A stretch of DNA of 64,000 nt, from the NCBI RefSeq assembly GCF_009741265.1, contig NZ_WOWL01000001.1, positions 186,001 to 250,000 of the forward strand, read 5' to 3'. How positions within the stretch are numbered: position 1 is the stretch's first letter; each line of letters starts with the position of its first letter. The position numbers and the translations under genes are program-made. This stretch comes from Pseudarthrobacter sp. GA104 (GTDB lineage Bacteria > Actinomycetota > Actinomycetes > Actinomycetales > Micrococcaceae). Positions 8,879-26,391 of this stretch are shown here, piece by piece. The notes below the pieces were generated by a model. That model made no database searches. It worked only from the letters and a program-made list of their open reading frames with translations, and was not told where the DNA came from.

Positions 8879-9820
8879 TCAGCCGAGTAGCGCTACGCCG
8901 AATTCAGCGACGACGGCCCGCAATTCACTGAGGTAGCGCTGCGCTTGGTCGGTGAGCGGAATCGCGGCGTGGCCGATCCAGCCGATTTCGATGCGTTCGT
9001 CAACGTCGAGCGGGATGGCGACGATCTCCGGGTCGAGCTGCCCACTGATGATTCCCGTCGAAATCGTGTAGCCGTGGAGCCCGATCATGAGGTTGAAGAT
9101 CGTCGCACGGTCAGAGACCCGGATCTCCTGCTTACTGGACAAGGTGGAGAGGATCTCCTCGGCGAAGTAAAAAGAGTTGTTCGCACCTTGATCGAAGGTC
9201 AGCCGCGGCAAGCCGGCAAGATCTTCTAGAGTCGCTCGCTCTTTTGAGGCGAGCGGGTTGTTCCGTGAAATGAAGATGTGCGGATCGGCGAGGAACAGCG
9301 GAGAGAACGCGAGCCCGGATTCGCGGAGCAGCTTGTCGATGATCTTCCGGTTGAAATCGTTCCGGTAGAGGATGCCTATCTCGCTGCGGAGCGTCTGGAC
9401 ATCCTCGATGATGTCCCAGGTGCGGGACTCACGCAGCGAGAACTCGTATTCGGCCACCTCAGTGGCCTTGACCATCCGGACGAAGGCGTCCACCGCGAAC
9501 GAGTAGTGCTGCGTTGACACCCCAAGCAGACGTCGCCGCGGTGGCCTACCAAGGTAACGCTGCTCGAGGAGAGCGAACTGCTCGACGACCTGCCTCGCAT
9601 AGCCGAGGAACTCTGCCCCGTCGGCTGTGAGGGTGACGCCGCGGGCGGAGCGAACCAGGAGCGCACGGCCCACCCGGGCCTCAAGGTCCTTCATCGCTGC
9701 GGACATTGTGGGCTGCGCTACGTAAAGAAGGTCGGCAGCCGCTGAGATTGACCCCTCAGCTGCAACTTCTATGAAGTAGCGCAGCTGCTGCAGGGTCAAT
9801 CCGCTGGAAAGCTGTGGCAT
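8879..9820 (-). CDS. LysR-family regulator, divergent from mesX
   Basis: A 313-residue protein with an N-terminal winged helix-turn-helix (LQQLRYFIEVAAEGSISAAA, residues ~10-30; QPTMSAAMKDLEARVG) and a LysR effector-binding domain. It is transcribed away from the methionine synthase genes, with 120 bp between the starts, the usual layout of a LysR activator and its target. By position it probably senses a sulfur or methionine-related metabolite, as MetR does with homocysteine, but the ligand is not visible in the sequence. Confidence 0.88.
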   Translation of the reverse strand: MPQLSSGLTLQQLRYFIEVAAEGSISAAADLLYVAQPTMSAAMKDLEARVGRALLVRSARGVTLTADGAEFLGYARQVVEQFALLEQRYLGRPPRRRLLGVSTQHYSFAVDAFVRMVKATEVAEYEFSLRESRTWDIIEDVQTLRSEIGILYRNDFNRKIIDKLLRESGLAFSPLFLADPHIFISRNNPLASKERATLEDLAGLPRLTFDQGANNSFYFAEEILSTLSSKQEIRVSDRATIFNLMIGLHGYTISTGIISGQLDPEIVAIPLDVDERIEIGWIGHAAIPLTDQAQRYLSELRAVVAEFGVALLG

Positions 9821-9832
9821 AGGAAAATTCTA

Positions 9833-9844
9833 TATGAATGCATA
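9833..9844. promoter_or_regulatory. Possible LysR operator
   Basis: The short dyad TATG-AATG-CATA lies 13 bp from the LysR start in the divergent intergenic region. It is small, and only its position supports it. Confidence 0.3.
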
Positions 9845-9940
9845 ATGACCACTAGTTACTTGATACCCCTCGGAAGGTTGCAGCATGGATACATCCCCTT
9901 CGGAAAGGCCGTCTCCGGCCCATCAACGGATTGGCAGCAC

Positions 9941-10933
9941 ATGGCAGACGACTTCACCTTCAGCATTACCATGACCCGCTTCGACGAGGACTACTCCCCG
10001 TCGGAAGGCTCCCGGATCACGACGAATTTCGCCAACCTGGCACGGGGCGAGCACCGCCAGGAGAACCTCCGCAACGCCTTGACCATGATACGGCGCCGTT
10101 TCAACGATCTCGCAGACTGGGACAACCCGGACCGGGACCGCTACGCGCTCGAGCTTGAGATCGTTTCCGTGCAGATACAGTTCACCGCGGACGGAACGGA
10201 TCAGCAGTTCCCGCTGTTCGAGGTTCTCGATATCCAGATCGTCGACCTGCTGAACGGGATCCGCCACCAAGGAATCGTCGGCAACAACTTCTCCTCCTAC
10301 GTCCGAGACTTCGACTTCAGCGTCGTACTGCCGGCGGCAGCCGGGTACTCAGGCAAGCCCACGGTGCCCGACGACTTCGGCGATCTTCACGGCAAGCTGT
10401 TCCAGCACTTCCTCGATTCCCCGGTAGGCCGGGAACGCTTCCCGCAGCCGCCAGTGGTCTGCATCAGCGTCTCCACAAGCAAGACGTACCGGCGAACCGG
10501 GAACCGTCACCCGGTCCTGGGCGTCGAGTACCAGCAGGACGAGTTCTCGCTGACGGACGCGTACTTCGCAAAGATGGGACTGCGGGTGCGCTACTTCATG
10601 CCACGCGGCAGCGTTGCGCCGCTCGCCTTCTATTTCCGGGGCGACCTGCTCAATGACTACTCCAACCTGCAGCTCATCGGCACCATCAGCACCATGGAGA
10701 CGTTCCAGAAGATCTACCGCCCGGAGATCTACAACGCGAACTCCGCCGCCGCCGCCGTCTACCAGCCGAGCCTGGGCGAGCAGGACTACTCGCGGACCCA
10801 GATCGCTTACGACCGCGTCGAGCGCGGTCAGCTCGCGATCACGCAGGCGAAGTACACGGAGGAGCACTTCATCACGCCCCACAAGGATCTGTTGGACCAG
10901 TGGACCGCCAACTACCCTGCCCTCGTCAACTGA
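9941..10933 (+). CDS. mesX: MesX, oxygenase-like partner of MesD (DUF1852)
   Basis: DUF1852 protein of about 330 residues. Its start (DDFTFSITMTRFDEDYSPSEG, then SRITTNFANLARGEHRQENL) matches the conserved beginning of the family. The frame is open from ATG 9845, but ATG 9941 fits the family start. In bacteria that have the MesD methionine synthase, MesX is required for its activity and is thought to be an oxygenase that helps supply the methyl group or cofactor (established for the family; mechanism unsettled). mesD follows 20 bp downstream and a flavin reductase after that, so the operon carries a full MesX/MesD unit. Confidence 0.85.
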   Translation: MADDFTFSITMTRFDEDYSPSEGSRITTNFANLARGEHRQENLRNALTMIRRRFNDLADWDNPDRDRYALELEIVSVQIQFTADGTDQQFPLFEVLDIQIVDLLNGIRHQGIVGNNFSSYVRDFDFSVVLPAAAGYSGKPTVPDDFGDLHGKLFQHFLDSPVGRERFPQPPVVCISVSTSKTYRRTGNRHPVLGVEYQQDEFSLTDAYFAKMGLRVRYFMPRGSVAPLAFYFRGDLLNDYSNLQLIGTISTMETFQKIYRPEIYNANSAAAAVYQPSLGEQDYSRTQIAYDRVERGQLAITQAKYTEEHFITPHKDLLDQWTANYPALVN

Positions 10934-10953
10934 CCCACGGAGAATCGTTAATC

Positions 10954-12000
10954 ATGAACACACTTTTGCCCACCACCGTTGTCGGTAGCCTGCCGAAACC
11001 ATCGTGGCTCGCACAGCCGGAGACTCTTTGGTCCCCGTGGAAGCTGGAGGGAGATGCGCTGCTCGAGGGCAAACAGGATGCGCTGCGCATCGCCATCCAC
11101 GAGCAGAGCCTGCGCGGCATCGACATCGTCAGCGACGGCGAGCAAACCCGCCAGCACTTCGTCACGACCTTCATCGAGAATCTCAGCGGGGTCGACTTTG
11201 AACAACGCAAGACCGTGCGCATCCGCGACCGCTACGACGCGAGCGTACCGACCGTCGTCGGACCAGTGAGCCGTGAGCGGCCGGTATTCATCGACGACGC
11301 AAAATTCCTTCGCGCAACCACTGACCGGCCGATCAAATGGACTCTTCCCGGTCCAATGACGATGGTGGACACGCTCTACGATGACCACTACAAGAGCCGC
11401 GAGAAGCTGGCCTGGGAGTTCGCCACGATCCTGAACCAGGAGGCGAAAGAACTCGAGGCGGCCGGCGTTGACATCATCCAGTTCGACGAGCCCGCGTTCA
11501 ATGTCTTCCTCGATGAGGTCAAGGATTGGGGAGTGGCTGCGCTTGAGAGAGCCGCAGAAGGACTGCGCGCTGAGACCGCCGTGCATATCTGCTACGGCTA
11601 TGGGATCAAGGCGAACAATGACTGGAAGGCGACGCTCGGCTCACAGTGGCGGCAGTACGAGGAAACGTTCCCGCTGCTGCAAAGCTCCAGCATCGACATC
11701 ATCTCGCTGGAATCCCAGAACTCCCAAGTGCCCATGGACCTCATCGAGCTCCTCCGCGGCAAGAAAGTCATGCTCGGGGCAATCGACGTCGCAAGCGAGA
11801 CCATCGAGACCCCGGAGGAGGTCGCCAACACCCTCCGCATGGCCCTCCAGTTCGTCGATGCGGACAAGCTCATCCCCAGCTCCAACTGTGGCATGGCACC
11901 GTTCCCCCGGGACGTCGCACTGGCCAAGCTGAGTGCTCTCAGCGCAGGGACGAACATCATTCGCGAGGAACTCGCCCGCTCCGCCCCCAGCGTGTCCTAG
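10954..12000 (+). CDS. mesD: MesD, folate-independent methionine synthase
   Basis: A 348-residue single-domain MetE-like enzyme (core-MetE family). It makes methionine from homocysteine without methyl-tetrahydrofolate. The zinc ligands are present: H211 and C213 in AVHICYGYG and C312 in SSNCGMAPFPRD. The phosphate-binding start TTVVGSLPKPSW is typical. ATG 10954 has GGAG upstream. The N-terminal half of canonical MetE, which holds folate, is absent. Together with MesX and the flavin reductase it forms the operon controlled by the divergent LysR gene. An ordinary MetE or MetH is not in the window. Confidence 0.88.
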   Translation: MNTLLPTTVVGSLPKPSWLAQPETLWSPWKLEGDALLEGKQDALRIAIHEQSLRGIDIVSDGEQTRQHFVTTFIENLSGVDFEQRKTVRIRDRYDASVPTVVGPVSRERPVFIDDAKFLRATTDRPIKWTLPGPMTMVDTLYDDHYKSREKLAWEFATILNQEAKELEAAGVDIIQFDEPAFNVFLDEVKDWGVAALERAAEGLRAETAVHICYGYGIKANNDWKATLGSQWRQYEETFPLLQSSSIDIISLESQNSQVPMDLIELLRGKKVMLGAIDVASETIETPEEVANTLRMALQFVDADKLIPSSNCGMAPFPRDVALAKLSALSAGTNIIREELARSAPSVS

Positions 12001-12002
12001 CG

Positions 12003-12575
12003 ATGTTTCACGCCTACCCCGCAGAGACTTGGCTCGACGCTCCCGAGCAAAGCTTCCCGTCCTCCCTCTCGGCTGACGAATTCAAGGCACTGTTCCGTGG
12101 GCACCCGGGAGGTGTCGCCGTCATCACGGCCGATGCCGGCGAAGGACCGGTGGCACTGACGGTATCGTCGGTCGTGTCAGTGAGTGCGGAACCTCCATTG
12201 CTGATTTTCTCGGTCTCGGCACTGTCCTCTGCGTCCGAAGTGCTTTCGCGCGCCGATACCGTCGTCGTGCACCTGCTGGACGCGCACGACGTCGACTTGG
12301 CGAAGTTTGGAGCGACCCCCGGCGCCGACCGGTTTGACCAGACGCACCGCTGGTCGCCCCTTGCAACCGGCGAAGCGGTGTATGAGGATGTCCGCGCCTG
12401 GGTGCGCTGCGCCGTCATCAATCGCATGGAGGTGGGGACCTCCACAATCATCGCCGTTCACGCCCTGGAGTCCCGCGTGATGCGTGACGTCCAAGCGGGC
12501 GAACCCGGCGACGCTCTGGTCTACCACAACCGCTCATGGCACCGTCTGGGCGAGCATTCCAAGCTTGAAGGCTGA
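12003..12575 (+). CDS. Flavin reductase of the mes operon
   Basis: A 190-residue protein. From residue ~25 it carries the flavin reductase-like fold (EFKALFRGHPGGVAVITADA, then PPLLIFSVS and DRF…THRW). Such enzymes reduce FMN or FAD with NAD(P)H for a partner oxygenase. The ATG is 2 nt after the mesD stop, so translation is probably coupled. Its place after mesX/mesD suggests that it feeds reduced flavin to MesX (inference). Confidence 0.85.
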   Translation: MFHAYPAETWLDAPEQSFPSSLSADEFKALFRGHPGGVAVITADAGEGPVALTVSSVVSVSAEPPLLIFSVSALSSASEVLSRADTVVVHLLDAHDVDLAKFGATPGADRFDQTHRWSPLATGEAVYEDVRAWVRCAVINRMEVGTSTIIAVHALESRVMRDVQAGEPGDALVYHNRSWHRLGEHSKLEG

Positions 12576-15539: not shown

Positions 15540-17189
15540 TTAGGTCAGCGTTGGGGCGTCTATTCGTGCCGTTTTGTCTGCAACCACGTCGCCGTCGACC
15601 ATCGTGAGGATGACCGGGGCCGCTGCAAATTCATCAGGAGTGGCATTTAGTGGATTCTGGGCGAAAACCGTCAGGTCAGCCCTGCCTCCCGGGCGCAGGA
15701 TGCCGCCTTCTTCTCCCACGGATTGCCAGTACTGGCTGGTGTACCCTTCCAGTGCGGCGCGGGCGGACAACGCCTGTTGGGGCTGTACCGGAGTGATGTC
15801 GGGCCTGCCTGCCGGTCTGCGGGTTTGTGCTGCAGCGATGACGCCGCGCGGGTCGAAGGGGGCAATAGGCCAGTCGGACCCGAGAGCGACGACGGCTCCG
15901 GCCTCGCGCAGATCACGTGTGCGCCAGGCGTGGTTGGCGCGTTCGGTCCCCAGGCGGCGTGACCAGTTGTCGGTGTGGTCGGCGCGGCTGTACAAGGTGC
16001 AGTGTGTCGGCTGCAGACTTGTTGTGGCGCCGGACTCGACGACCTGGTTCAGCACCTCGTCGGGAATGGATTCGATGTGTTCAATCCGGTGGATTGTCCC
16101 GTTCGGGGGAAGTGAGGCGACGGTCCGGGCGACGTGGGAGACGGCCCTGTCTCCGATGGCGTGGGTGGCGGTTGGAACGCTGTTGTCGTGAAAGAATCTC
16201 ATGGCAGCCGAGAGCCCTTCAGGCTCGGGCCACAGCGGGTCCACTGATTCGCCGTGCGTATCAGGGGCCAAAAGCCATGCGGTTCCGTTGTCGATGGTGC
16301 CGTCCATCATGAGTTTTATTCCGCGGACGTGCCAGCGGCGCCCATGGCGGCCCTGCATGGCCAGGAGTCTGTCCAGATCCTCCTGCGATACGCCGGGCAT
16401 GACCCACGGGGAAATGCGTAGACGAATGGACAGGTCGCCCCGTTCCTCGAGAGCTTCCAAGACCTCCAGGGAGTCGGCCTGGCCGAAGTCAAGCATCTGG
16501 CCGCCCACCAGCCCGGCTTCGGCCATCGAGCGCAGCAGCCGGTCGAGTTCGTTTACTCTTTCGTCGAATGACAGTGGCGGGAGCTTGGGTTGCACCAGTT
16601 CCATGGCGGCCATCTCGTACAGCATACCGTTGGGTTTACCGTCGGCGGTCGTGCCAACGAATCCTGAGCTGTCCAGCTTTTCCCGGCCTGTTACCCCTGC
16701 GAGGCTGAGGCCGGCGTCGGAGACCAGGGCGGCGTGGCCGTCAAAAAGGGTGATGTAGACGAGTTCTCCATCCAGGATGCCTTCGAAGATGTCGTTGCTG
16801 AACTCCGCTTCGCCGAAGATCACCGGGTCAAGGCCCCAGGCGAAGAGCCAGTCCCTGCCGATCCGGTGGGGTGTTTGGGCGGCATATTCGGCAAGTGCCA
16901 GCCGTACCTCGCTGAACTCTGTTATGCCGTTCAGGTCCAGGCCGCGGGCGATGCTGATTCCAAGTATCGGGTGGATGTGCGCGTCAATCAGCCCGGGGGT
17001 CACCGTGGCGTCCCCAACGTCAATGACGCGGGCAGCGCCTGGGGTCCATTGTTCTGCTTCCTCCGTTGGGCCTATGGCGACGATGTGGCCGTCGTTGATG
17101 GCGATGAAGCCGGCAGTTTCTTCAAGGTGTTCACCGTGAAGGATGCTGGAGGAAAGGATGAGGATGTCGGTGGTTGCGGGCGTGCTCAA
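15540..17189 (-). CDS. YtcJ-like metal-dependent amidohydrolase
   Basis: A 549-residue protein of the amidohydrolase superfamily. The N-terminal beta-sandwich leads to VTPGLIDAHIHP with metal ligands H71 and H73. Later ligands are seen in THAIGDRA, HRIEHIE and LGSDWPIAPFDP. YtcJ-type enzymes hydrolyse amide or N-formyl bonds in the cytoplasm. TTG 17189 with ACAGGAG 8 nt upstream is the likely start. It is the last gene of a permease-TetR-amidohydrolase operon, so the imported compound probably carries an amide bond (inference). Confidence 0.85.
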   Translation of the reverse strand: MSTPATTDILILSSSILHGEHLEETAGFIAINDGHIVAIGPTEEAEQWTPGAARVIDVGDATVTPGLIDAHIHPILGISIARGLDLNGITEFSEVRLALAEYAAQTPHRIGRDWLFAWGLDPVIFGEAEFSNDIFEGILDGELVYITLFDGHAALVSDAGLSLAGVTGREKLDSSGFVGTTADGKPNGMLYEMAAMELVQPKLPPLSFDERVNELDRLLRSMAEAGLVGGQMLDFGQADSLEVLEALEERGDLSIRLRISPWVMPGVSQEDLDRLLAMQGRHGRRWHVRGIKLMMDGTIDNGTAWLLAPDTHGESVDPLWPEPEGLSAAMRFFHDNSVPTATHAIGDRAVSHVARTVASLPPNGTIHRIEHIESIPDEVLNQVVESGATTSLQPTHCTLYSRADHTDNWSRRLGTERANHAWRTRDLREAGAVVALGSDWPIAPFDPRGVIAAAQTRRPAGRPDITPVQPQQALSARAALEGYTSQYWQSVGEEGGILRPGGRADLTVFAQNPLNATPDEFAAAPVILTMVDGDVVADKTARIDAPTLT

Positions 17190-17238
17190 GCTGTACTCCT
17201 GTAATGTTGCGGAACCACGGCCGGCACCCGGGACTATG

Positions 17239-17880
17239 TCAGGTGCCGCCGCTGATGGCTGCCTTAAGACCTACCGACAACACGTCGGCCAAGAAGGCGA
17301 AGCGGTCCATGTGGCTGGTTGTCACAGCCTGCTGGGCCGCGGAGAGGTGGGGGAAGTCCGCCCGGTGGGGCTCGGGAATATCCCAGGCGGATTCCATTGT
17401 GATGGCGTCGAGGCTGGCGCCAATGGCGGCGCTGTCGAGGGTTTCCAGGGTCGGAATGATGAGATGATCCGGTACTCCGACGCGCAGGAAGGCTTCTGCG
17501 AACTTGTCGTATAGGGCCAACGCTGCCGGATGCGAGACCGGTTGGGCGAGCAGCAGCGGCAGGAGGGCCGGCGCGAGGCTGTAGGCGGTTCGGAGCGCAT
17601 GGAAGATCTGGCGAATAAGGACTTCGAGGTTTGCAGCAGTCAGGTCGGGAACATGGACCCGATCGGCCAGGGACCCGCGGGCGAGTTCGATGATGTCGTC
17701 CCGGCCTGTGACGTGCTTGTAGAAGGACGACTGTCGTACGCCGAGGCGCTCGGCGAGGCGTGGAATCGACAGTCCTGATTCCTCCTCGAACATCGCCAGC
17801 GCTTCCCGGCCGATTTGTTTGCGGGAGAGCCGCGGGGTTCGCGGCCGGCCAATCCGGCTGGTCTTTTCGGGCGTCTGCAT
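17239..17880 (-). CDS. TetR/AcrR-family regulator
   Basis: A 213-residue protein with a TetR helix-turn-helix in the first 60 residues (SRKQIGREALAMFEEESG, then RLAERLGVRQSSFYKHVTGR) and an all-helical ligand-binding C-terminal domain. It lies between permease and amidohydrolase genes in one operon, with gaps of 23 and 49 bp, and is probably a local repressor that responds to the imported substrate. No matching palindrome was found with confidence. Confidence 0.85.
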   Translation of the reverse strand: MQTPEKTSRIGRPRTPRLSRKQIGREALAMFEEESGLSIPRLAERLGVRQSSFYKHVTGRDDIIELARGSLADRVHVPDLTAANLEVLIRQIFHALRTAYSLAPALLPLLLAQPVSHPAALALYDKFAEAFLRVGVPDHLIIPTLETLDSAAIGASLDAITMESAWDIPEPHRADFPHLSAAQQAVTTSHMDRFAFLADVLSVGLKAAISGGT

Positions 17881-17903
17881 CTTCCAAGGCTAATCTCAAA
17901 GTG

Positions 17904-19376
17904 TTAGACCGCATGGCCGATGCGTTGGTACGCAGCGGGGTTCACCCGTCGCAGGATCACGGCAAGGAGGGCGCCCGCGCCGAAGACCACCGGTGCGATG
18001 AGCAAGAGGGCGGTGTTGACGGGGTCATTGTCGGGCAGTCCAGTGAGCAGCCCGACGTTGTCCACCATCAGGTACGTCACAACGCACATAATCAAGGTCG
18101 AGGCGACAGCCGAGGGTATTACATACCACTTGAGCCGGTGCTCCCTGTGCCGGACGAAAAAGACCACGACGCCGACTCCCGTGAAGGCCTGCAGCAGCAG
18201 AATGCCGATCACGCCCGGACTGTTTGCCCAGATAAGGAACTGCGTGAAGGGGTCCAGTTGCAGCAAGGCGGCGCCAACGACCAAGGCCACGGAAAGCAGG
18301 GTTTGTTCTATGCCCGCCACTGACGGCGTGCCGTGCCGGGGGCTGATCCGGCCGGAATGCTTCGGAAAGATGCCTTCGCGGCTCAGCGAGAGCGTGTAGC
18401 GGTTGATGGTGTTGTGGAAGGCGAGCTGGGAGGCAAAGATGCTGGTAACGATGAGCACGCTCATCAGGTTCACGCACCAATCCCCGGCGAAGGTTCCGGC
18501 CATGATGTATGCGGTATCTCCCGTGTCCAGGTGTCCGGCAGCGAATGCCTGCACCACTACGGGGCCGAAGGCCTGAACAATAACCCAGACTGCAAAGGCG
18601 TAGAAGGCGCCAATGAAGGCGATGGAGATGTAGGTCGCCCGGGGAACGCTCTTGTCCGGGTCCCGTGCTTCCTCACGGTAAAGTGCTCCGGATTCAAATC
18701 CCATGAATGCCGAGAAGCCCAGGGCGATCACAGCAGCAAACTGCGGGGTGAAGATCGCGTCAGGGCTAAAGGAATCAAATCCGATCCCCTCGGCACCGCC
18801 CTGGAGGAGCACTGCTGCTGCCACGACGGCGACGATTGCCGTTTCCAAGGTGAGAAGGACGGCCAACACCTTGGCGCCGACGTCGATCCCCCGCCAGCCC
18901 AGGTACCAAACTGCACCGATCGCCACCAGTGCGTAAAGCCACCAGGGCAGTTCCACCTCTGTCAACGACCTGACAGCGAGGTCGGCCTGGATGCCAAGGA
19001 GGCCGTACAGACCTATCTGAATGCCGTTGTAGCTCATCCATGCGGTAAGCCCGGAACCGAGCCCAACAACCCGGCCAAGAGACTTGGCGACGTAGCCGTA
19101 AAAGCCGCTGTAGGACTGGATGTGGCGGGTAAGGGCCATGAAACCGACGGCGAAAAGAGCAAGACCCAGGGCGCCGGCAATGTAAATGACCGGGGCACCA
19201 ACGCCGCCCACGGCCAGGGCCAGCGGCGCGATCCCGACAACGATGGTCAACGGGGCGGCGGCTGAGACCAGCATAAAGACGATGTCCCGGGTGCCGATGG
19301 CATCCTTTTTCAGCTCGGTCCTAGGATCGGCCCCTGCGGGCGGCACCATCGCCGCCGCTTCATTAGTGAAAGTCAT
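17904..19376 (-). CDS. APC-family amino acid/amine permease
   Basis: A 490-residue inner-membrane protein with about 12-14 membrane helices. RDIVFMLVSAAAPLTIVVG opens the first helix, and GFMALTRHIQSYSGFYGYVAKSLGR matches the conserved helix 2-3 region of APC transporters. ATG 19376 (MTFTNEAAAM) was chosen; upstream codons in frame are not hydrophobic and cross the operator at 19438. The substrate is probably an amine or amino-acid-like compound. It heads the permease-TetR-amidohydrolase operon and faces the MHS transporter operon. Confidence 0.85.
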   Translation of the reverse strand: MTFTNEAAAMVPPAGADPRTELKKDAIGTRDIVFMLVSAAAPLTIVVGIAPLALAVGGVGAPVIYIAGALGLALFAVGFMALTRHIQSYSGFYGYVAKSLGRVVGLGSGLTAWMSYNGIQIGLYGLLGIQADLAVRSLTEVELPWWLYALVAIGAVWYLGWRGIDVGAKVLAVLLTLETAIVAVVAAAVLLQGGAEGIGFDSFSPDAIFTPQFAAVIALGFSAFMGFESGALYREEARDPDKSVPRATYISIAFIGAFYAFAVWVIVQAFGPVVVQAFAAGHLDTGDTAYIMAGTFAGDWCVNLMSVLIVTSIFASQLAFHNTINRYTLSLSREGIFPKHSGRISPRHGTPSVAGIEQTLLSVALVVGAALLQLDPFTQFLIWANSPGVIGILLLQAFTGVGVVVFFVRHREHRLKWYVIPSAVASTLIMCVVTYLMVDNVGLLTGLPDNDPVNTALLLIAPVVFGAGALLAVILRRVNPAAYQRIGHAV

Positions 19377-19430
19377 TCGCTTATTATTGACGTGGATCGC
19401 AGGTTGCGTCAAGGGTCGTATTTTTTTAGT

Positions 19431-19452
19431 GGACAAGTTGTATACGAGTGAT
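19431..19452. promoter_or_regulatory. GntR-type operator, site 2, between divergent operons
   Basis: The exact 10-mer TTGTATACGA at 19438-19447 is identical to site 1. It lies between the APC permease start (19376, minus) and the MHS transporter start (19572, plus), so one bound regulator could control both operons. The two GntR genes at 21015 and 25751 are the obvious candidates. Confidence 0.6.
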
Positions 19453-19571
19453 CTACAGTCGAGGCAGGGCATCGACGTGAATTAGATCACCGAGCCGGCG
19501 CCATCCCGGCGCCTTCCTTCTTCGCAACGGTGCGCAGAAGGCACCGTCCCTAAACCCCAACAAGGATTTTC

Positions 19572-20936
19572 ATGAGCAATGTGTCCCACAAGGAGCGGGG
19601 CGTGCGTAAGCACACCTCCCTTCCCGCAGTTGCTGCATCCAGCCTCGCCGGCACCGCCGTCGAATGGTATGACTTCTTCCTGTACGGCACGGCAGCAGCC
19701 CTCGTCTTCAACAAACTGTTCTTCCCCAGTGCAGACCCCATGGTCGGCACCATGCTGGCCCTGGGAACCTTCGCCGCGGGATTCGTCGCCCGTCCGCTGG
19801 GCGCGATTGTTCTTGGCCATCTCGGCGACAAACACGGCCGTAAGTCAACGCTTGTGGCTAGCCTGCTCCTGATGGGCGTGGCTACCGCCCTCATCGCTTT
19901 GATCCCCCCTTACGCGTCAATCGGAATCATCGCCCCGCTGATCCTGTTGTTCCTACGGCTGGTCCAGGGCTTTGCCCTCGGCGGCGAATGGGGTGGGGCC
20001 GTCCTGCTGGTCTCCGAATACAGCGACAACAGCACCAAGCGGGCATTCTGGGCCTCGTGGCCGAACGTTGGTCCGCCCCTGGGCAACCTCATGGCCGCCG
20101 GTGTCCTTGCCGTGCTGTCCGCTGTGATGCCCCAGGACCAATTCCTTGCCTGGGGTTGGCGGATCGCCTTCGGCCTTTCCGCGTTGCTGGTCATTATCGG
20201 TTTGGTCCTGCGTCTCTACGTGCAGGAAACACCGCTGTTCCTGGCCTCACAGGCCAAGGCCGATGCCGAGCATGCCAAGCAGGCAAAGCTGCCCCTGGCC
20301 GAACTGTTCCGAGGCAACTGGAAAGAAATCCTGATCGCAGCAGGCAGCCGGATGGGCGAGAACGCCGGCTTCTACATCTACTCCCTGTTCCTCATCACCT
20401 ACGTCACCGAGATCCTGAAGATGGATCGCCAGACTGGCCTGAACGCCGTCATGGTCGGCCAGGGCGTAGCTGTCGTTGCCATCCCCGTACTGGCGATCTT
20501 TGCCGACCGGATTGGCCGCAAACCGATGATGATCGGAGCCTCCGTCGCCACGGTGGTGTGGGGGTTTGCCTTCTTCGCCCTCCTGGACACCCGGCAACCG
20601 GGCATGATCATCCTCGCCGCTGTTGGCGGCCTGCTGATTTTCGCCGCCTACAGCTCCGTGATCGGCGCGTTCTTCTCCGAACTGTTTCCCACCAAGGTGC
20701 GCTACAGCGGAACATCGGTGGCCTACAACGTCGCGTCCCTGATCGCCGGCTCACTTTCCCCCATCATCGCCCTGGCCCTGTACCAGGCTTTCGGTTCGGG
20801 CCAGGCCATTGCCCTCTACCTCGTCCTCATGGGCGTCATCTCCATCGTCGCCGTGTCCTTCGCAAAGGAAACAAAGGACATGAAGCTCAGCGACCTCGAC
20901 GAGAAGCCCACGCCCGTAGCGGCGCAGCAGCTCTGA
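19572..20936 (+). CDS. MHS-family metabolite:H+ symporter
   Basis: A 454-residue MFS protein of the metabolite:H+ symporter family. It has SLAGTAVEWYDFFLYGTAAALVF in helix 1, GHLGDKHGRKST in the helix 2-3 loop and LRLVQGFALGGEWGGA in helix 4, all hallmarks of the family that imports aromatic and dicarboxylic acids. CAAGGA precedes ATG 19572. It is the first gene of the operon that contains a flavin monooxygenase, so it likely imports the substrate of that pathway. Confidence 0.88.
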   Translation: MSNVSHKERGVRKHTSLPAVAASSLAGTAVEWYDFFLYGTAAALVFNKLFFPSADPMVGTMLALGTFAAGFVARPLGAIVLGHLGDKHGRKSTLVASLLLMGVATALIALIPPYASIGIIAPLILLFLRLVQGFALGGEWGGAVLLVSEYSDNSTKRAFWASWPNVGPPLGNLMAAGVLAVLSAVMPQDQFLAWGWRIAFGLSALLVIIGLVLRLYVQETPLFLASQAKADAEHAKQAKLPLAELFRGNWKEILIAAGSRMGENAGFYIYSLFLITYVTEILKMDRQTGLNAVMVGQGVAVVAIPVLAIFADRIGRKPMMIGASVATVVWGFAFFALLDTRQPGMIILAAVGGLLIFAAYSSVIGAFFSELFPTKVRYSGTSVAYNVASLIAGSLSPIIALALYQAFGSGQAIALYLVLMGVISIVAVSFAKETKDMKLSDLDEKPTPVAAQQL

Positions 20937-20943
20937 CGTGACC

Positions 20944-20982
20944 GCTGTCCGTGGCAGCGGGAACACGGCCGCCACGGACAGC
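20944..20982 (+). terminator. Hairpin between transporter and gntR
   Basis: A perfect 12-bp stem (GCTGTCCGTGGC at 20944 with 20971-20982) with a 15-nt loop starts 8 nt after the transporter stop. It has no U-tract, so it may act as a partial terminator or mRNA stabiliser inside the operon. Confidence 0.6.
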
Positions 20983-21014
20983 GCACACCTCACCCGGAAG
21001 GACAGAACGGACCC

Positions 21015-21674
21015 ATGACTATTTTCGAGAACCCCGCGCCGACGGCACCGGAAACGGCCTATCTGTGGCTGCGCCGGGAGATCTCACTGCTGCCATGGGA
21101 CCAAGAAGCCTTCCTCACCGAAAACGCGATTGCCGAGGCCGCCGGAGTGTCCCGCACCCCTGTCCGGGACGCGCTCCTCCGTCTTGAGACCGCAGGTCTG
21201 GTCCGGCGGGTCCCACACAAGGGCGCCTACGTGCCCGCGCTGACGGCACAGGACATCGAGAACATGATGGAAGTCCGGCGGGTCATCGAAGAGTGGGCCG
21301 TTAGGAAAGTCAGCTCTACCGGCCGCCTGGGGAGCGAACTTGACCGGCTCCTCCAGGACCAACAGGACAGCCTCACCGACCCGGTCGCGTTCATCGACTT
21401 CGACATCAGCTTCCACAAGCACATCGTGCATGCCGCAGCCAACCGGGCATTGGAAGAGGTCTACGACTCCCAGCGCATCAAACAGCAACGCATGGGCGTC
21501 AAGGCCGTCCAGGACAGCCAATTTCGCGGTGACCACGTCGTGGACGAACACCGGGCAATCGTCGAAGCAATCCGGCAAAGGGATGCACCAACGGCGGCCG
21601 CTGCCGTCCTGAACCATCTCGAATCAACACTCACCGTCCTCAAAGCCATCCCTGCCCACTCAAACCGCGGCTAA
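21015..21674 (+). CDS. GntR-family (FCD) regulator
   Basis: A 219-residue protein. The winged helix reads TAPETAYLWLRREISLL…FLTENAIAEAAGVSRTPVRDALLRLETAGLV and is followed by the all-helical FCD ligand domain (metal-binding His in FHKHIVHAAANRAL). It is highly similar in layout to the frameshifted gene at 25751. FCD regulators usually respond to organic acids. It probably binds the TTGTATACGA sites around this cluster. Confidence 0.88.
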   Translation: MTIFENPAPTAPETAYLWLRREISLLPWDQEAFLTENAIAEAAGVSRTPVRDALLRLETAGLVRRVPHKGAYVPALTAQDIENMMEVRRVIEEWAVRKVSSTGRLGSELDRLLQDQQDSLTDPVAFIDFDISFHKHIVHAAANRALEEVYDSQRIKQQRMGVKAVQDSQFRGDHVVDEHRAIVEAIRQRDAPTAAAAVLNHLESTLTVLKAIPAHSNRG

Positions 21675-21714
21675 GACCGACGGGGTTGCCGCCCCCACTT
21701 ATGAAGGAGCACCA

Positions 21715-22509
21715 ATGGACATCGCCCTCGTCCAGTTGTCCAGCCCGGACGATGAGAGCCAGACCCAACGCATCGAACGCACCGAGAAGCTTTTGCGGGA
21801 GCAGGAGGGCGCAGACCTCATCGTCCTGCCCGAACTGTGGAGCGCAGGCTACTTCCATTTCGGCCAGTACCCCGAACTGTCCGAAACGCTGAACGGACCA
21901 ACGGTTCGCATGTGCGCGTCCGTGGCGAAGAACCTCGGAACCTATGTACATGTCGGCAGCATCGTCGAACGCGTCGCCGGAGGGGCCCTGCGCAACACTT
22001 CTGTCCTGGTGGACCCCCGGGGAAATATCGCCCACCAATACTCGAAGCTGCACGTCTTTGGGTACAAATCCCTTGAAGCCGACCTGCTTACCCGGGGTGA
22101 CTCCCTTCAGGTGGCAGACACCCCTTACGGGAAAATGGCAGGCACCACCTGCTATGACCTCCGCTTCCCCGGCCTGTGGTCCGAACTCAGCGTGCGTGGA
22201 GCGGAAATCGTCGTGGTTCCCGCTGCCTGGCCCGCCGCCCGCCGGGAGCATTGGCGGCTGCTCACCTCCGCACGCGCGGTCGAGCACCAGGTCTACGTCC
22301 TCGCCTGCAACGCCGCCGGTAGGCAGGAAGGCGTCGAACTCGGCGGCACCAGCCGCATCGTCGACCCGGGTGGCCGCCTCCTCGCCGAAGCAGGAGACGG
22401 TGAGGAAGTCCTCCGCACCACCATCGACCCGGACCTGGTGCACACTACACGCCGCGAATTCCCGGTGATCGCTGACCGACTCACCGACTACTCAGCCCTG
22501 ACCCGATGA
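21715..22509 (+). CDS. Nitrilase-superfamily C-N hydrolase
   Basis: A 264-residue carbon-nitrogen hydrolase. The Glu-Lys-Cys triad is E40 (IVLPELW), K111 (YSKLHVF) and C146 (GTTCYDLRFP). The short length fits omega-amidases and N-carbamoyl or formamide hydrolases more than true nitrilases. GAAGGAG lies 6-8 nt before the ATG. Its position between a regulator and a ring monooxygenase suggests that it hydrolyses an amide intermediate of an N-containing substrate (inference). Confidence 0.85.
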   Translation: MDIALVQLSSPDDESQTQRIERTEKLLREQEGADLIVLPELWSAGYFHFGQYPELSETLNGPTVRMCASVAKNLGTYVHVGSIVERVAGGALRNTSVLVDPRGNIAHQYSKLHVFGYKSLEADLLTRGDSLQVADTPYGKMAGTTCYDLRFPGLWSELSVRGAEIVVVPAAWPAARREHWRLLTSARAVEHQVYVLACNAAGRQEGVELGGTSRIVDPGGRLLAEAGDGEEVLRTTIDPDLVHTTRREFPVIADRLTDYSALTR

Positions 22510-23210
22510 CCACGAAAGCAGACCCTATGAAAACCAGTACCGAAACGCTTACCTTTGCCGTTGCCGGCACAGATACAACGATCGAACTCACCGATTATTA
22601 TGCTGTTGTGGCCGGATACACAGGCCGCGACGCCGCCGCAGTCCAGCACCACATCGATGAACTCGCCGCCATCGGTGTCGCACCGCCGCCATCCGTGCCG
22701 ATGTTCTACCGGGTGGACAGCGAATCCGTCACCTCGTCCCCCGAACTCGGCGTCACCGGAGAACAGACCTCCGGTGAAATCGAACCTCTCTACATCAGGC
22801 ACGATGGCCGCTACTACTTCGGCATCGCTTCAGACCACACCGACCGCCACTTGGAAACAGTGGACATCGGCGATTCAAAACGGGCCTGCCCCAAACCGGT
22901 AGCCGGCACCGTCATTCCTGTCCCCGACCTGCATGCCCTGTCACTGGACGACTGCCGGGCACGCAGCTGGGTTGACGGCCGGCTCTACCAGGACGGAACC
23001 CTCGACGGCTTGCGGACACCGGGCAACGTCGTCGAACTGCTCCTTGAGCGCAACCCCATCGGGGACCGCGACTTCGTCTGCCTCGGCGGGACCCTGCCCG
23101 TCATCGGCGGCGACTTCATCTACGGCCGCGAGTGGAAGATCGAACTCACCTTCCCGGACGGCACCACCATCGACCACACCTACATCATCACGAAAGGACA
23201 CCAGTCATGA
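22506..23210 (+). CDS. DUF2848 protein
   Basis: A protein of about 234 residues from ATG 22506, which overlaps the previous stop by 4 bp; a second ATG at 22527 is possible. The sequence has the DUF2848 pattern: YYAVVAGYTGRDAAAVQHHI near the start and VELLLERNPIGDRDFVCLGGTLPVIGGDF toward the end. The family resembles fumarylacetoacetate hydrolases in placement and length, but its reaction is not established. The 4-bp overlaps on both sides show tight coupling with the hydrolase and the monooxygenase. Confidence 0.75.
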   Translation: MTTKADPMKTSTETLTFAVAGTDTTIELTDYYAVVAGYTGRDAAAVQHHIDELAAIGVAPPPSVPMFYRVDSESVTSSPELGVTGEQTSGEIEPLYIRHDGRYYFGIASDHTDRHLETVDIGDSKRACPKPVAGTVIPVPDLHALSLDDCRARSWVDGRLYQDGTLDGLRTPGNVVELLLERNPIGDRDFVCLGGTLPVIGGDFIYGREWKIELTFPDGTTIDHTYIITKGHQS

Positions 23211-24673
23211 GGACCGGAGACGAATACATTAAGACGCTCAACGACGGACGCACCGTCCTGATCGACGGGGAAGCCGTTGAGAACGTCGCCGAACACCCTG
23301 CCTTCCGCAACGTCATTGGCACCATCGCCGAACTCTTCGACATCGCCGCGGAGCCGGCGAACGGGATGCAGTACCACAGCGAAGAAATCGACGGCCCCGC
23401 GAACCGCGTCTTCAGCATTCCCCGCACCCCGGAGGAGCTGAAGCTGCGCCGCCAGGCGGTCGAACGCTGGGCCAAGCACACCCACGGATGGGTCGGACGC
23501 AGCCCCGACCACGTCGGCACCTTCTTCGCCGCCTTCGGCGCCCACCCTGAAGTCTTTGAAGACACCGAACACGACTACGCAGGAAACATCACCCGCTACT
23601 ACAAGCGCATTCTCGCCGAGAACCTGTACGTTTCCTACGCCATCATCCCCCCGCAGGTCTCCCGCGCCACAACAGCATCCGGATGGGAAGGCGACTTCCT
23701 ACAGGTCGGCGTCGTCAAGGAAACCGACGAGGGCCTGATCGTCCGCGGCTCACAAATGCTCGCCACCGGCGGCGCCATCGCTGACGAAGTTTTCGTCACC
23801 TGCATCAAACCCCTCGGCCCGGACGACGTTGACTTCGCCATCAGCTTCGCGCTGCCCGCGGCCACCGAGGGCCTCAAGTTCCTCTGCCGCCGTCCCTTCG
23901 CACCGGCCGCGACCAGCGAATTCGACTACCCGCTGACCAGCCACTACGACGAGCCGGACGCCCTCGTGGTCTTCGAAGACGTCCTCGTCCCCTGGGACCG
24001 GGTCTTCATCAACCGCAACATCGACACCCTGCGCCGGCAGTTCTTCGAAACCGGCGCACACGCCCTAGGCAACTGGCAGGCACAGACCCGCTTCACCACA
24101 AAACTGCAGTTCATCGCCGCCGTCGCACGCAAGGTCACCCAGGTGAACGGCACCGACAAGATTCCCGGCGTTCAGGAAAAGCTCGGCGAACTCGCAGCCG
24201 TCGTCTCATCCGTGGAGTCCGCACTGATCGCTGCCGAATACACCGCCGAAGCAGACTCTTCCGGCATGCTGGTACCCGGCAAACGCTCTCTCTACGGCGC
24301 CATGGGCCTTCAGTCAGAGACCTACCCCCGCGTCATCGCGATCCTGCGGGACCTCGTGGGCGGCGGCGTCCTGCAGCTGCCCTCAGGCGTCGTGGACATG
24401 AAGAGCCCAGTCACCGCACCGGACATCGAACGCTACATCGCCTCCCCTGGCGTGCCCAGCGAAGAGCGTATCAAACTCTTCCGCCTCGCCTGGGACATCA
24501 TCGGCTCGGAATTCGCCGGCCGACACCAGCAGTACGAGCTCTTCTACGCCGGCGCACCGTTCGTCGTCAAGGGCGTCTACACCTACCGCAACTATGGCTA
24601 CGAAGCGCAGGTCGCCGAACTCAACGAGTTCCTGGCAGGCTACGGCGTTGACGGCCGCAAGGAGGAAAACTAG
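23207..24673 (+). CDS. HpaB-type flavin-dependent monooxygenase, large component
   Basis: A 488-residue oxygenase of the 4-hydroxyphenylacetate 3-hydroxylase (HpaB/PvcC) family. RTGDEYIKTLNDGRTVLIDG is the standard start, then the acyl-CoA-dehydrogenase-like FADH2-binding core (VVKETDEGLIVRGSQMLATGGAIADEV) and the C-terminal helical bundle. These enzymes hydroxylate or cleave an aromatic or heteroaromatic ring with O2 and FADH2 from a partner reductase. AAAGGA precedes ATG 23207, which overlaps the DUF2848 stop by 4 bp. The partner reductase is at 25031. Confidence 0.88.
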   Translation: MRTGDEYIKTLNDGRTVLIDGEAVENVAEHPAFRNVIGTIAELFDIAAEPANGMQYHSEEIDGPANRVFSIPRTPEELKLRRQAVERWAKHTHGWVGRSPDHVGTFFAAFGAHPEVFEDTEHDYAGNITRYYKRILAENLYVSYAIIPPQVSRATTASGWEGDFLQVGVVKETDEGLIVRGSQMLATGGAIADEVFVTCIKPLGPDDVDFAISFALPAATEGLKFLCRRPFAPAATSEFDYPLTSHYDEPDALVVFEDVLVPWDRVFINRNIDTLRRQFFETGAHALGNWQAQTRFTTKLQFIAAVARKVTQVNGTDKIPGVQEKLGELAAVVSSVESALIAAEYTAEADSSGMLVPGKRSLYGAMGLQSETYPRVIAILRDLVGGGVLQLPSGVVDMKSPVTAPDIERYIASPGVPSEERIKLFRLAWDIIGSEFAGRHQQYELFYAGAPFVVKGVYTYRNYGYEAQVAELNEFLAGYGVDGRKEEN

Positions 24674-24675
24674 CC

Positions 24676-25031
24676 ATGCCAAAACCTGAAGTTGAATTCA
24701 CGCCCACCTCGTCCGTCGAATTCACCCCCTGCAACCCACCCATTGAAGGGCTCTCCGAAGCCATCCTGGCCAGGAACACCGAAAACGACAGTGTTACCCG
24801 GATCCTCAAATTCGAGCCCGGAACAGACACCTCCCCCAACGGTGTGCTGACCCACGACTTCTGGGAAGAGGTCTTCATCTTCGAGGGCTCCTTTGTTGAC
24901 CAGCGCCTTGGGAAAACCTTCAAGGCAGGTGACTGGGCAACCCGTCCCCGGGAATGGAACACGGTCCCTGGATCTCGGAGAACGGCGCGAAAATGTTTGA
25001 GGTGCGCTACTACCAGAACGGAAACAACTGA
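24676..25031 (+). pseudogene. Cupin protein, broken by a one-base deletion
   Basis: A ~117-residue single-domain cupin (THDFWEEVFIFEGSFVDQRL, then GKTFKAGDWATRP). At about 24949 the run CCCC is one base short of what the reading needs. With one more C the frame continues GMEHGPWISENGAKMFEVRY to a TGA at 25029-25031. Without it the frame reads on for ~35 unrelated residues into the next gene. The corrected stop overlaps the next ATG as TGATG, as expected for an operon. It is either a real mutation or a homopolymer sequencing error. The intact protein would be a metal-binding cupin of ChrR-like type. Confidence 0.75.
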
Positions 25032-25555
25032 TGGGCGCTCCAACAGCCTTCGCAGTCCCCGACGGGCTGGCAATGCGCCGCACCATGGGCAGGTTCCTCA
25101 CAGGTGTCGCCGTGGTCATCACGGAGAACGCCGGTGAACAGTACGGCATGACCATCAACTCGTTGACGTCCATCAGCCTGGACCCACCCATCCTGATGAT
25201 CTCCCTGAACTTCAACACCCGCACCGGAGACGCCCTCCTCGCAAGCGGAAAGTTCGCGATCTCCATCCTCGGAGCCAAACAGGAAGCCGTGGCCCGGCAA
25301 TTCGCCCAACGCGGCGGAGCCCGCTTCGACGCCGGCGACTTCGACACCACCGGAGGCGGCCTGTCCGTAGTCAGAGGCGCCCTGTCCCAAGCAGAGTGCA
25401 CCGTGGTCCACCAGTACGACATAGGCGACCATCAGGTGTTCTTCGGACAGGTCACATCATGCCGTGATCGGGATGGCGACGGCCTGGCCTTCAACGCAGG
25501 AAAATTCGGCTCCTTCCACGACTTCAACCACGACGCCATGCCCTGGACGTTCTAA
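25031..25555 (+). CDS. Flavin reductase, partner of the HpaB-type oxygenase
   Basis: A 174-residue HpaC-like reductase: MRRTMGRFLTGVAVVITENA, then YGMTINSLTSISLDPPILMISLN and the NAD(P)H/flavin pocket FNTRTGDALLASGKFAISILG. It supplies reduced FAD or FMN to the oxygenase at 23207. It is the last gene of the operon; a strong terminator follows. Confidence 0.87.
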   Translation: MGAPTAFAVPDGLAMRRTMGRFLTGVAVVITENAGEQYGMTINSLTSISLDPPILMISLNFNTRTGDALLASGKFAISILGAKQEAVARQFAQRGGARFDAGDFDTTGGGLSVVRGALSQAECTVVHQYDIGDHQVFFGQVTSCRDRDGDGLAFNAGKFGSFHDFNHDAMPWTF

Positions 25556-25575
25556 CCTGGCATCCCTCGCAACCC

Positions 25576-25616
25576 AAAAGCCTCCCCTGACCCACCAAGG
25601 GCAGGGGAGGCCTTTT
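25576..25616. terminator. Bidirectional intrinsic terminator
   Basis: AAAAGCCTCCCCTG (25576-25589) pairs with CAGGGGAGGCCTTTT (25602-25616) with one bulged base and a 12-nt loop. It has T-runs on both strands and lies between the convergent reductase and gntR genes. Confidence 0.85.
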
Positions 25617-25750
25617 GCACCTAACCTCTGGGCGAACTTGGCACCAGCCGGGAACGCGCCGGACCAAACGTGACGCGTACTCCGGGCACGATGATCGCCG
25701 ATTGTGATCGCCATTTAGCCGTGCAGCCCGATCCGCTCCCCTATGAAGAG

Positions 25751-26391
25751 TTAGTAGCCAACAATGGCTGCTCGAGTCGACTTCAAATGGGAATCAATCG
25801 CCTGATGCGTCGACTCAATGTTGCGTGCCCGAAGGGCATCAACGATCGACTGATGTTCGCCCAGCACCTGATCTGCCCGGCCGCGTCCCTTTGTGACGGC
25901 CAGTACCCCTATCCGAAGCTGGCGTTGCCGAAGGGAAGAATAGAAATCTGCGAGGATCGGATTACCTGCTGCCCTCACCATTAGGGTGTGGAACTCTGTA
26001 TCAAGCTCAATGAAACGGGCAGGATCACCCTGAGCCTCCCGTTGCTGATCAATCAGGCCCTGCAACGCATCGATCTGACCTTCGACCATGTCGTCCAAGC
26101 CCGACACGGCCCACTTCTCCACGACCGAACGTGCCTGCAGGATCGCTCGGACGTCTGCGTCAGATATCGGGGGACGTAGGCTCCCTTATGAGGCACCCTC
26201 TTGATAAATCCCTCTGCCTCAAGCCGAAGGAGCGCTTCACGGACTGGAGTGCGCGATGTTCCCGTTTCTTTAGTTAAGACAGCTTCATTGAGGAACGTCT
26301 CCGCATCCCGCGGCAGCGATGCTATGTAGCTTCTTAACCAGTTATAGGCAGTCTCTGGCGCCGACTGGCTGGAGGGAGTCAACTGGGACAC
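25751..26391 (-). pseudogene. Second GntR (FCD) regulator, frameshifted
   Basis: From GTG 26391 (GGAAAGG upstream) the frame gives APETAYNWLRSYIASLPRDA, SRTPVREALLRLEAEGFIKR and VPHKGAYVP. It then leaves frame at a C-run near 26174. The other frame continues DADVRAILQARSVVEKWAVS and the FCD domain to a stop at 25751. The gene at 21015 shows the same path unbroken (VPHKGAYVPALTAQDIENMM). A one-base loss explains it. An operator variant lies 27 bp upstream, suggesting that the gene was autoregulated. Confidence 0.75.

Follow-up and report, generated by a model that had tools for sequence, protein, structure and literature searches.

The stretch of DNA analysed here (the window) comprises 64,000 nucleotides from Pseudarthrobacter sp. 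GA104 (contig NZ_WOWL01000001.1, positions 186,001 to 250,000 of the forward strand), and the subject of this analysis is a divergent gene cluster at window positions 15540-26391 that includes an HpaB-type flavin monooxygenase, a nitrilase-superfamily amidase (NIT) and a protein of the uncharacterised family DUF2848. A preliminary description of this DNA had listed two transporters, an amidohydrolase, a nitrilase-type hydrolase, DUF2848, an HpaB-type oxygenase with its reductase, a cupin and three regulators, and scans of the window's open reading frames (ORFs) with Pfam and NCBIfam recovered every one of them at the positions given for it. The features are as follows:

15540-17189, minus strand: Amidohydro_3 hydrolase of the left arm (Pfam)
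17239-17880, minus strand: TetR-like regulator of the left arm (nothing in Pfam; in NCBIfam a single weak match to TetR, 23.5 bits)
17904-19472, minus strand: APC-family permease of the left arm
19572-20936, plus strand: MFS transporter of the metabolite:H+ symporter type, with scores under the family cut-offs; it would import the acid
21015-21674, plus strand: GntR/FCD regulator inside the operon (Pfam)
21715-22509, plus strand: NIT, a nitrilase-superfamily amidase with a CN_hydrolase domain and catalytic E40, K111 and C146, resembling omega-amidase (2-oxoglutaramate amidase)
22506-23210, plus strand: DUF2848 protein with a predicted FAH-superfamily fold; proposed ring hydratase or tautomerase
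23207-24673, plus strand: oxygenase component of an HpaB-type group D flavin monooxygenase, in which H102 and Y144 replace the Tyr/His of 4-hydroxyphenylacetate (4-HPA) hydroxylases
24676 to about 25031, plus strand: small Cupin_7-like protein, frameshifted here, with conserved H60, E64 and H96; proposed for an isomerase or hydrolase step
25031-25555, plus strand: flavin reductase (FlvRed), partner of the oxygenase (Pfam and NCBIfam)
25575-25617, plus strand: terminator-like hairpin at the end of the operon (-31.1 kcal/mol), its stem followed by a T-run
25751-26391, minus strand: second GntR, the third regulator of the cluster, frameshifted

The listed HpaB ORF starts at 23132, and the likely true start is the ATG at 23207. 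With this start there are exactly two 4-base overlaps (NIT/DUF2848 and DUF2848/HpaB) followed by a 2-base gap to the cupin, which bears out the tight coupling from the nitrilase-like gene through the oxygenase that had been described. Further upstream the gaps are 78 bases (MFS to GntR) and 40 bases (GntR to NIT). The closing hairpin was absent from the list produced by a consensus terminator scan, and promoter-like sites (5 found against 2.1 expected) were not used as evidence. The cupin gene is split by a frameshift at 24948-24955 and the second GntR gene by one at about 26165; by our reading both lie at homopolymers, and they are either assembly errors or recent decay. Both genes are open in Pseudarthrobacter sp. 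NamE5 (L048), whose DNA is 92% identical to the window over 11 kb, whose HpaB is the closest among the named loci (98% identity) and whose cupin copy scores 36.7 bits in Pfam against a cut-off of 27. The exact 21-base stretch of the cupin gene was found in one of 92 loci, L001, which is the same genome, and this is a weak comparison because a plain substitution elsewhere would hide the stretch. A gene 68-79% identical to the second GntR sits divergently upstream of the MFS gene in Paenarthrobacter-type loci.

Conservation of the cluster was assessed in 61 named genome loci from Actinobacteria and Bacilli, some of them metagenome assemblies, which were chosen by HpaB alone and in which neighbours were scored within 8 kb of HpaB. 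The cupin was present in 56 of the 61 loci, NIT in 55 (52 at no less than 38% identity), DUF2848 in 55 and FlvRed in 55, together with GntR in 46 (34 at no less than 38%) and MFS in 41. When the left arm was scored in the same way, the amidohydrolase was present in 7 loci (4 at no less than 38%), TetR in 6 (4) and the APC permease in 6 (6). DUF2848 and HpaB_N each have a single match in the 4.78 Mb host genome, yet the two genes are adjacent; because of this, and because they lie within 8 kb of each other in 55 of the 61 loci chosen by HpaB, their linkage is not due to chance. The right arm at 19572-25555 is a conserved operon, and the cluster is made of two separable units, this operon and the left arm. 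The left arm also occurs alone in the same-genus genome G206 (74, 72 and 80% identity), where no operon genes are present in its 14 kb stretch; G206 has no match to the window oxygenase at E <= 1e-100 and carries another HpaB_N protein. The proposal that 15540-26391 forms one divergent system was therefore rejected, since the left arm is near HpaB in few of the 61 neighbourhoods and stands alone in G206. The operon itself is patchy, with the window oxygenase (E <= 1e-100) in 4 of 59 genomes, its own included, and the amidohydrolase (E <= 1e-60) in 12 of the 59.

The composition of the operon varies in instructive ways. Four proteobacterial plasmid stretches with an HpaB-type oxygenase were examined, and the three that are annotated (the fourth is not) carry DUF2848 and an amidase-signature enzyme alongside FlvRed, HpaB and the cupin. 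At L022, L024, L057 and L023 the best match to NIT is only 28-33% identical and sits at a different operon position; the gene in this slot at L024 is a CN_hydrolase by Pfam, and L023 carries an amidase-signature gene as well. The hydrolase slot has thus been refilled. The transporters at the locus also swap between MFS, branched-chain-type ABC, TRAP and BenE types, which suit a carboxylate substrate. In Roseateles sp. XES5 (L066:14424-15110) DUF2848 is on the opposite strand and adjoins GntR, which shows rearrangement of the module among lineages, and in Peribacillus (L049:13641-15380) FAD-synthetase and isochorismatase-family genes lie inside the cluster, the former probably supplying flavin. 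The gene caller used for these neighbourhoods is crude and over-extends ORF starts, 4 of 10 neighbour ORFs had nothing in Pfam at E <= 1e-10 (some are probably spurious), and other recurring neighbours are catalogued in part.

HpaB_N and HpaB domains score over their Pfam cut-offs in the window oxygenase, its predicted model has the HpaB fold, and a separate flavin reductase is encoded nearby, as in group D two-component enzymes. No close homologue with a proven role in 4-HPA hydroxylation was found when one was looked for; among solved 4-HPA enzymes the nearest share about 31-35% identity with it (Foldseek template modelling score about 0.90-0.93 with the predicted model). In TtHpaB, according to the portion of the article available (PMC6506529; this limit applies to all articles cited here), Arg100, Tyr104 and His142 hold the phenol hydroxyl and Ser197 and Thr198 hold the carboxylate. 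The active-site comparison proposed in the preliminary description was made by alignment and places R98, H102, Y144, I200 and K201 at these positions in the window HpaB, so that only the Arg is kept. Among 65 aligned HpaB rows (64 kept by a length window, plus the window protein) R98 and Y144 are found in all 65 and H102 in 64, whereas the Tyr/His pair is retained in the aligned TtHpaB, E. coli HpaB and SgcC. The NCBIfam equivalog cut-offs for 4-HPA monooxygenases are also not reached (TIGR02309, 361 of 480 bits; TIGR02310, 293 of 885 bits). Compared with the HpaB/HpaC 4-HPA 3-monooxygenase, the fold and the flavin reductase partner are alike, but Tyr104/His142 are replaced by His/Tyr and Ser197/Thr198 by Ile/Lys, and the operon has no HPA ring-cleavage gene. 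With two of the three phenol-holding residues swapped in its family, the window HpaB is not a typical 4-HPA hydroxylase.

The DUF2848 protein was modelled with a mean predicted local distance difference test (pLDDT) score of 93. Its top structural match by VIA was the putative fumarylpyruvate hydrolase 4maq (Z 20.3 over 190 residues); 49 of the 50 listed VIA rows were recognised as FAH or MhpD-type proteins, some under general titles, the last row being unrelated, and Foldseek also returned the FAH superfamily. In 38 rows picked from 62 sequences, after hits covering less than 60% of the query were dropped (the DUF2848 of L060), H49xxE52, E91xE93, D110xxxR114, E117 and K125 are invariant. In FAHD1, a member of the FAH superfamily, E71 and E73 act as metal ligands. 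A His30-Glu33 dyad, bound Mg, E71, D102, R106, Q109 and K123 are named for FAHD1 (PMC8398924), and the DUF2848 motifs, compared by eye and not by 3D superposition, parallel His30-Glu33, E71, D102, R106 and K123. The same motif order was seen by eye in E. coli YcgM, annotated as oxaloacetate tautomerase. The protein thus resembles FAHD1, YcgM and fumarylpyruvate hydrolase in predicted fold and in its HxxE, ExE, DxxxR and Lys motifs, but it differs in having no Pfam FAA_hydrolase hit, a Glu (Glu117) in place of FAHD1 Gln109 and a shorter segment between the acidic motifs. A Pfam search at E up to 10 returned only DUF2848 and a weak DUF1233 hit, with no FAH profile; a PDB profile search gave a weak hit to 1nkq (E 0.029), a single-sequence PDB search found nothing, and aligning its profile to that of YcgM with hhalign likewise gave a weak result (probability 2.4, E 0.019). 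Because these sequence-profile links are weak, membership in the FAH superfamily rests on the predicted fold and the motifs, and DUF2848 is predicted to have an FAH-superfamily fold that keeps the catalytic motifs of that superfamily.

NIT has a CN_hydrolase domain in which E40, K111, E121 and C146 are present in all 57 aligned rows (56 kept by a length filter, plus the window protein). In the PDB it is matched best by YLR351C and mouse Nit2. E. coli YafV, which carries the annotation 2-oxoglutaramate amidase, shares 32% identity with it, and the genome holds four more distant NIT paralogues. At the level of family, NIT resembles omega-amidases, and 2-oxoglutaramate would be its probable substrate. 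In the cupin, H60, E64 and H96 are possible metal ligands and are conserved in 62 of 62 rows. On plasmid pMLY91_1 of Priestia megaterium (L069:6882-8042, WP_098804044.1) a nitrilase-type amidase and a cupin are fused in one annotated chain, with CN_hydrolase at residues 15-245 and the cupin part at 295-380 (Pfam 21.3 bits, cut-off 27); the latter shares 51% identity with the L048 cupin in an alignment of 112 residues (E 2e-40). The fusion gene adjoins DUF2848, MFS and GntR genes, and no HpaB match was found in its 12.7 kb stretch. The fusion links the cupin with the downstream steps of the route. The FAH-type fold predicted for DUF2848 and the association of cupin and amidase through the fusion protein are additions to the preliminary description.

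The reading that best explains these data as a whole, with a probability of roughly 0.42, is that the operon at 19572-25555 serves the breakdown of a small N-heteroaromatic carboxylate, with pyrrole-2-carboxylate as the likeliest candidate. The general scheme, in which an N-heteroaromatic acid is converted to an omega-amide and then to an acid and ammonia, is probable, whereas pyrrole-2-carboxylate as the particular substrate is somewhat less than an even bet. In this scheme GntR would control the operon, the MFS transporter would import the acid, and HpaB with its flavin reductase would hydroxylate the ring with one O2, at C5 in the case of pyrrole-2-carboxylate. The cupin and DUF2848 would then isomerise and hydrate the lactam tautomer and open it to 2-oxoglutaramate, however these steps may be divided between them; DUF2848, as a predicted FAH-fold metalloenzyme, may hold the 2-imino or 2-oxo carboxylate on Mg2+. 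Both the cupin and the FAH-fold protein are small and could in principle catalyse isomerisation or hydration. Finally, the nitrilase-type omega-amidase would release ammonia from 2-oxoglutaramate to give 2-oxoglutarate. The left arm (APC permease, amidohydrolase and TetR) would be a separate optional unit that may supply the substrate from a conjugate. The route from pyrrole-2-carboxylate to 2-oxoglutarate balances exactly with one oxygenation and two hydrations: C5H5NO2 plus O gives C5H5NO3, one H2O gives C5H7NO4 (2-oxoglutaramate) and a second H2O gives C5H6O5 and NH3. A Pfam scan of the operon proteins revealed no dehydrogenase, deformylase or CoA enzyme, and because one oxygenation and two hydrations suffice without the first two of these, pyrrole-2-carboxylate fits the gene set better than a pyridine does. 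The pyr pathway of Arthrobacter sp. 68b has a two-component flavin oxygenase and hydrolases together with deformylase and dehydrogenase steps, but no counterpart of the latter two was found among the operon genes. The catabolic logic of pairing a flavin monooxygenase with a C-N hydrolase for a nitrogen-containing ring, put forward in the preliminary description, fits a tightly coupled and conserved operon, and the earlier interpretation is in this sense partly supported; its particular parallel with pyridine breakdown in Arthrobacter is not supported.

Known systems provide several points of comparison. Pyrrole-2-carboxylate monooxygenase is known from Rhodococcus as well as Arthrobacter and has components of about 54 and 19 kDa, sizes that fit the 488 residues of HpaB and the 174 residues of the reductase. 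In Arthrobacter Py1 a flavin-dependent oxygenase initiates the degradation of pyrrole-2-carboxylate (title of Hormann and Andreesen 1991, cited in PMC12899673), and the enzyme (EC 1.14.13.130) is listed in group D (PMC6165268, table); it is thus, as here, a group D two-component flavin enzyme, from the genus Arthrobacter. The closest working analogue is the lower pathway of nicotine (pAO1) and 2-hydroxypyridine (Hpo) degradation, where a ring intermediate is converted to 2-oxoglutaramate, from which a nitrilase-type amidase yields 2-oxoglutarate, and where a PF04199 cyclase is the proposed ring opener (PMC6214936). The logic of 2-oxoglutaramate and a nitrilase-type amidase is shared, but here an FAH-fold DUF2848 and a cupin would take the place of the cyclase and the oxygenase is HpaB-type. 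The operon is of a known general kind, and its combination of ring-opening enzymes is new. Auxin iad clusters were considered as a match and dropped; to our knowledge, the iad oxygenase is not HpaB-type.

It should be noted that a number of observations weigh against this reading. That the window HpaB corresponds to the known pyrrole-2-carboxylate monooxygenase is a proposal, and 2,6-dihydroxypyridine has an equal mass balance. HpaB falls below the NCBIfam HpaB-1 cut-off (361 vs 480), and NIT reaches no NCBIfam cut-off (YafV model, 99 vs 249; deaminated glutathione amidase, 120 vs 500). At a distance of 2.3 Mb the genome also carries HpaD with a 4-HPA meta-cleavage set, and it has no HpaB_N protein other than the window HpaB; in 14 of 37 same-genus genomes the HpaB_N protein is a different one. 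At 6 of the 61 loci (L032, L037, L055, L056, L058 and L061) HpaB was matched without NIT or DUF2848 nearby; DUF2848 was not found in five of these genomes, an absence that is weak for the metagenome assemblies L056 and L058, and in the sixth it is found at another place, next to an MFS gene. By sequence, as described above, the link between DUF2848 and FAH is weak. DUF2848 scores over its cut-off in 24 of 197 sampled genomes, and 17 stretches carrying it were fetched from the same bacterial family. NIT, DUF2848, HpaB, cupin and reductase are together in 8 of these, but the other 9 (L073-L081) carry DUF2848, MFS, GntR and a CN hydrolase 27-33% identical to NIT, with no match to the oxygenase, cupin or reductase. 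These oxygenase-less loci suggest that DUF2848 may serve other substrates. A more specific version of the favoured reading would accommodate them but is doubtful: at a pyrrole-2-carboxylate locus, DUF2848, with the cupin possibly an isomerase, would open the 5-oxopyrroline/2-hydroxy-5-oxoproline ring to 2-oxoglutaramate, and the DUF2848-amidase pair alone would use 2-oxoglutaramate lactam in Pantoea, Priestia and other Micrococcaceae.

The same genes could be read in other ways. If HpaB hydroxylated 2,6-dihydroxypyridine or a relative, DUF2848 could open the resulting trihydroxypyridine and NIT could complete the route by acting on 2-oxoglutaramate, in the manner of the nicotine and 2-hydroxypyridine pathways. 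The identical mass balance and the use of 2-oxoglutaramate amidase in the Paenarthrobacter nicotine and Rhodococcus Hpo pathways (PMC6214936) speak for this route. However, it is unlikely, given that a scan of ten proteins from the operon and left arm did not find the proposed PF04199 ring-opening cyclase and that the transporters of the locus suit carboxylates. An equally unlikely route resembles that of gentisate, with HpaB making a dihydroxy (hetero)aromatic compound, the cupin acting as a ring-cleaving dioxygenase, DUF2848 hydrolysing an acylpyruvate and the amidase removing an amide nitrogen. The fumarylpyruvate hydrolases at the top of the DUF2848 structural matches and the conserved possible metal ligands of the cupin agree with it, but the cupin is fused to the amidase in L069, in a stretch with no oxygenase match, and 9 of the 17 stretches pair DUF2848 with a CN hydrolase and have no cupin match. 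Neither the cupin nor DUF2848 therefore follows an oxygenase step in its distribution. Slightly less likely still is a route for an imidazole or other azole acid, in which the amidase would act on a formamide or ureido product. Nitrilase-superfamily relatives do include carbamoyl and formamide hydrolases, and the left-arm amidohydrolase weakly matches deaminase, imidazolonepropionase and hydantoin-hydrolase models, all below cut-off; on the other hand, NIT has YLR351C and mouse Nit2 as its best solved relatives and is 32% identical to YafV, and the scan of the operon proteins named no separate deformylase or deiminase.

Least probable of all is that the window HpaB is the genome's 4-HPA 3-hydroxylase, feeding a distant homoprotocatechuate pathway, with its neighbours unrelated. 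The set 2.3 Mb away includes HpaD, HpaE and HpaH over their cut-offs and HpaI/HpaG-like proteins below them, and no HpaB was found among the ten ORFs scanned there, which would leave the window HpaB, as the only HpaB_N protein of the genome, to supply this step. However, HpaD is matched at E <= 1e-60 in every one of the 37 same-genus genomes, this one among them, and over its cut-off in 36, whereas the window oxygenase (E <= 1e-100) is present in 4 and any HpaB_N protein in 18, leaving 19 with HpaD and no HpaB_N. The phenol-binding Tyr/His and carboxylate-binding Ser/Thr are changed, and the conserved linkage is instead to DUF2848, the amidase and the cupin. A 4-HPA hydroxylase was rejected as the main reading because of the changed binding residues, the mismatch with the distribution of HpaD and the linkage elsewhere. 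The distant set itself (L095, G000:C1:2543000-2560000) comprises HpaE, HpaD, HpaH, HpaI/HpaG-like and MFS genes, and no HpaB was found there.

The operon is not described in the literature searched. No paper was found for the word DUF2848 in the open-access literature, subscription papers being mostly outside its coverage, and none was found on a cluster of cupin, amidase and HpaB. No gene cluster was described in the portions available of the best 12 of 160 matches for pyrrole-2-carboxylate or in the other matches listed, and nothing on the operon was present in the available portions of a paper on prenylated flavin mononucleotide (prFMN)-dependent pyrrole-2-carboxylate decarboxylase (PMC7976604) or of the Rue61a genome paper (PMC3534580). 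The pathway of pyrrole-2-carboxylate degradation has been called known but poorly understood (PMC12899673). If the pyrrole-2-carboxylate reading is correct, genes would be assigned to the aerobic pathway, DUF2848, an uncharacterised Pfam family, would gain a place in the FAH superfamily and a reaction that can be tested, and the operon would represent a modular combination of oxygenase, ring-opening enzymes and amidase in Actinobacteria, Bacilli and Proteobacteria.

Elsewhere in the window, at 8879-12575, a group of LysR-like, MesX (PF08908), MetE-like and flavin-reductase-like ORFs, of which only MesX was confirmed by Pfam, resembles a Mes-type methionine synthesis cluster.

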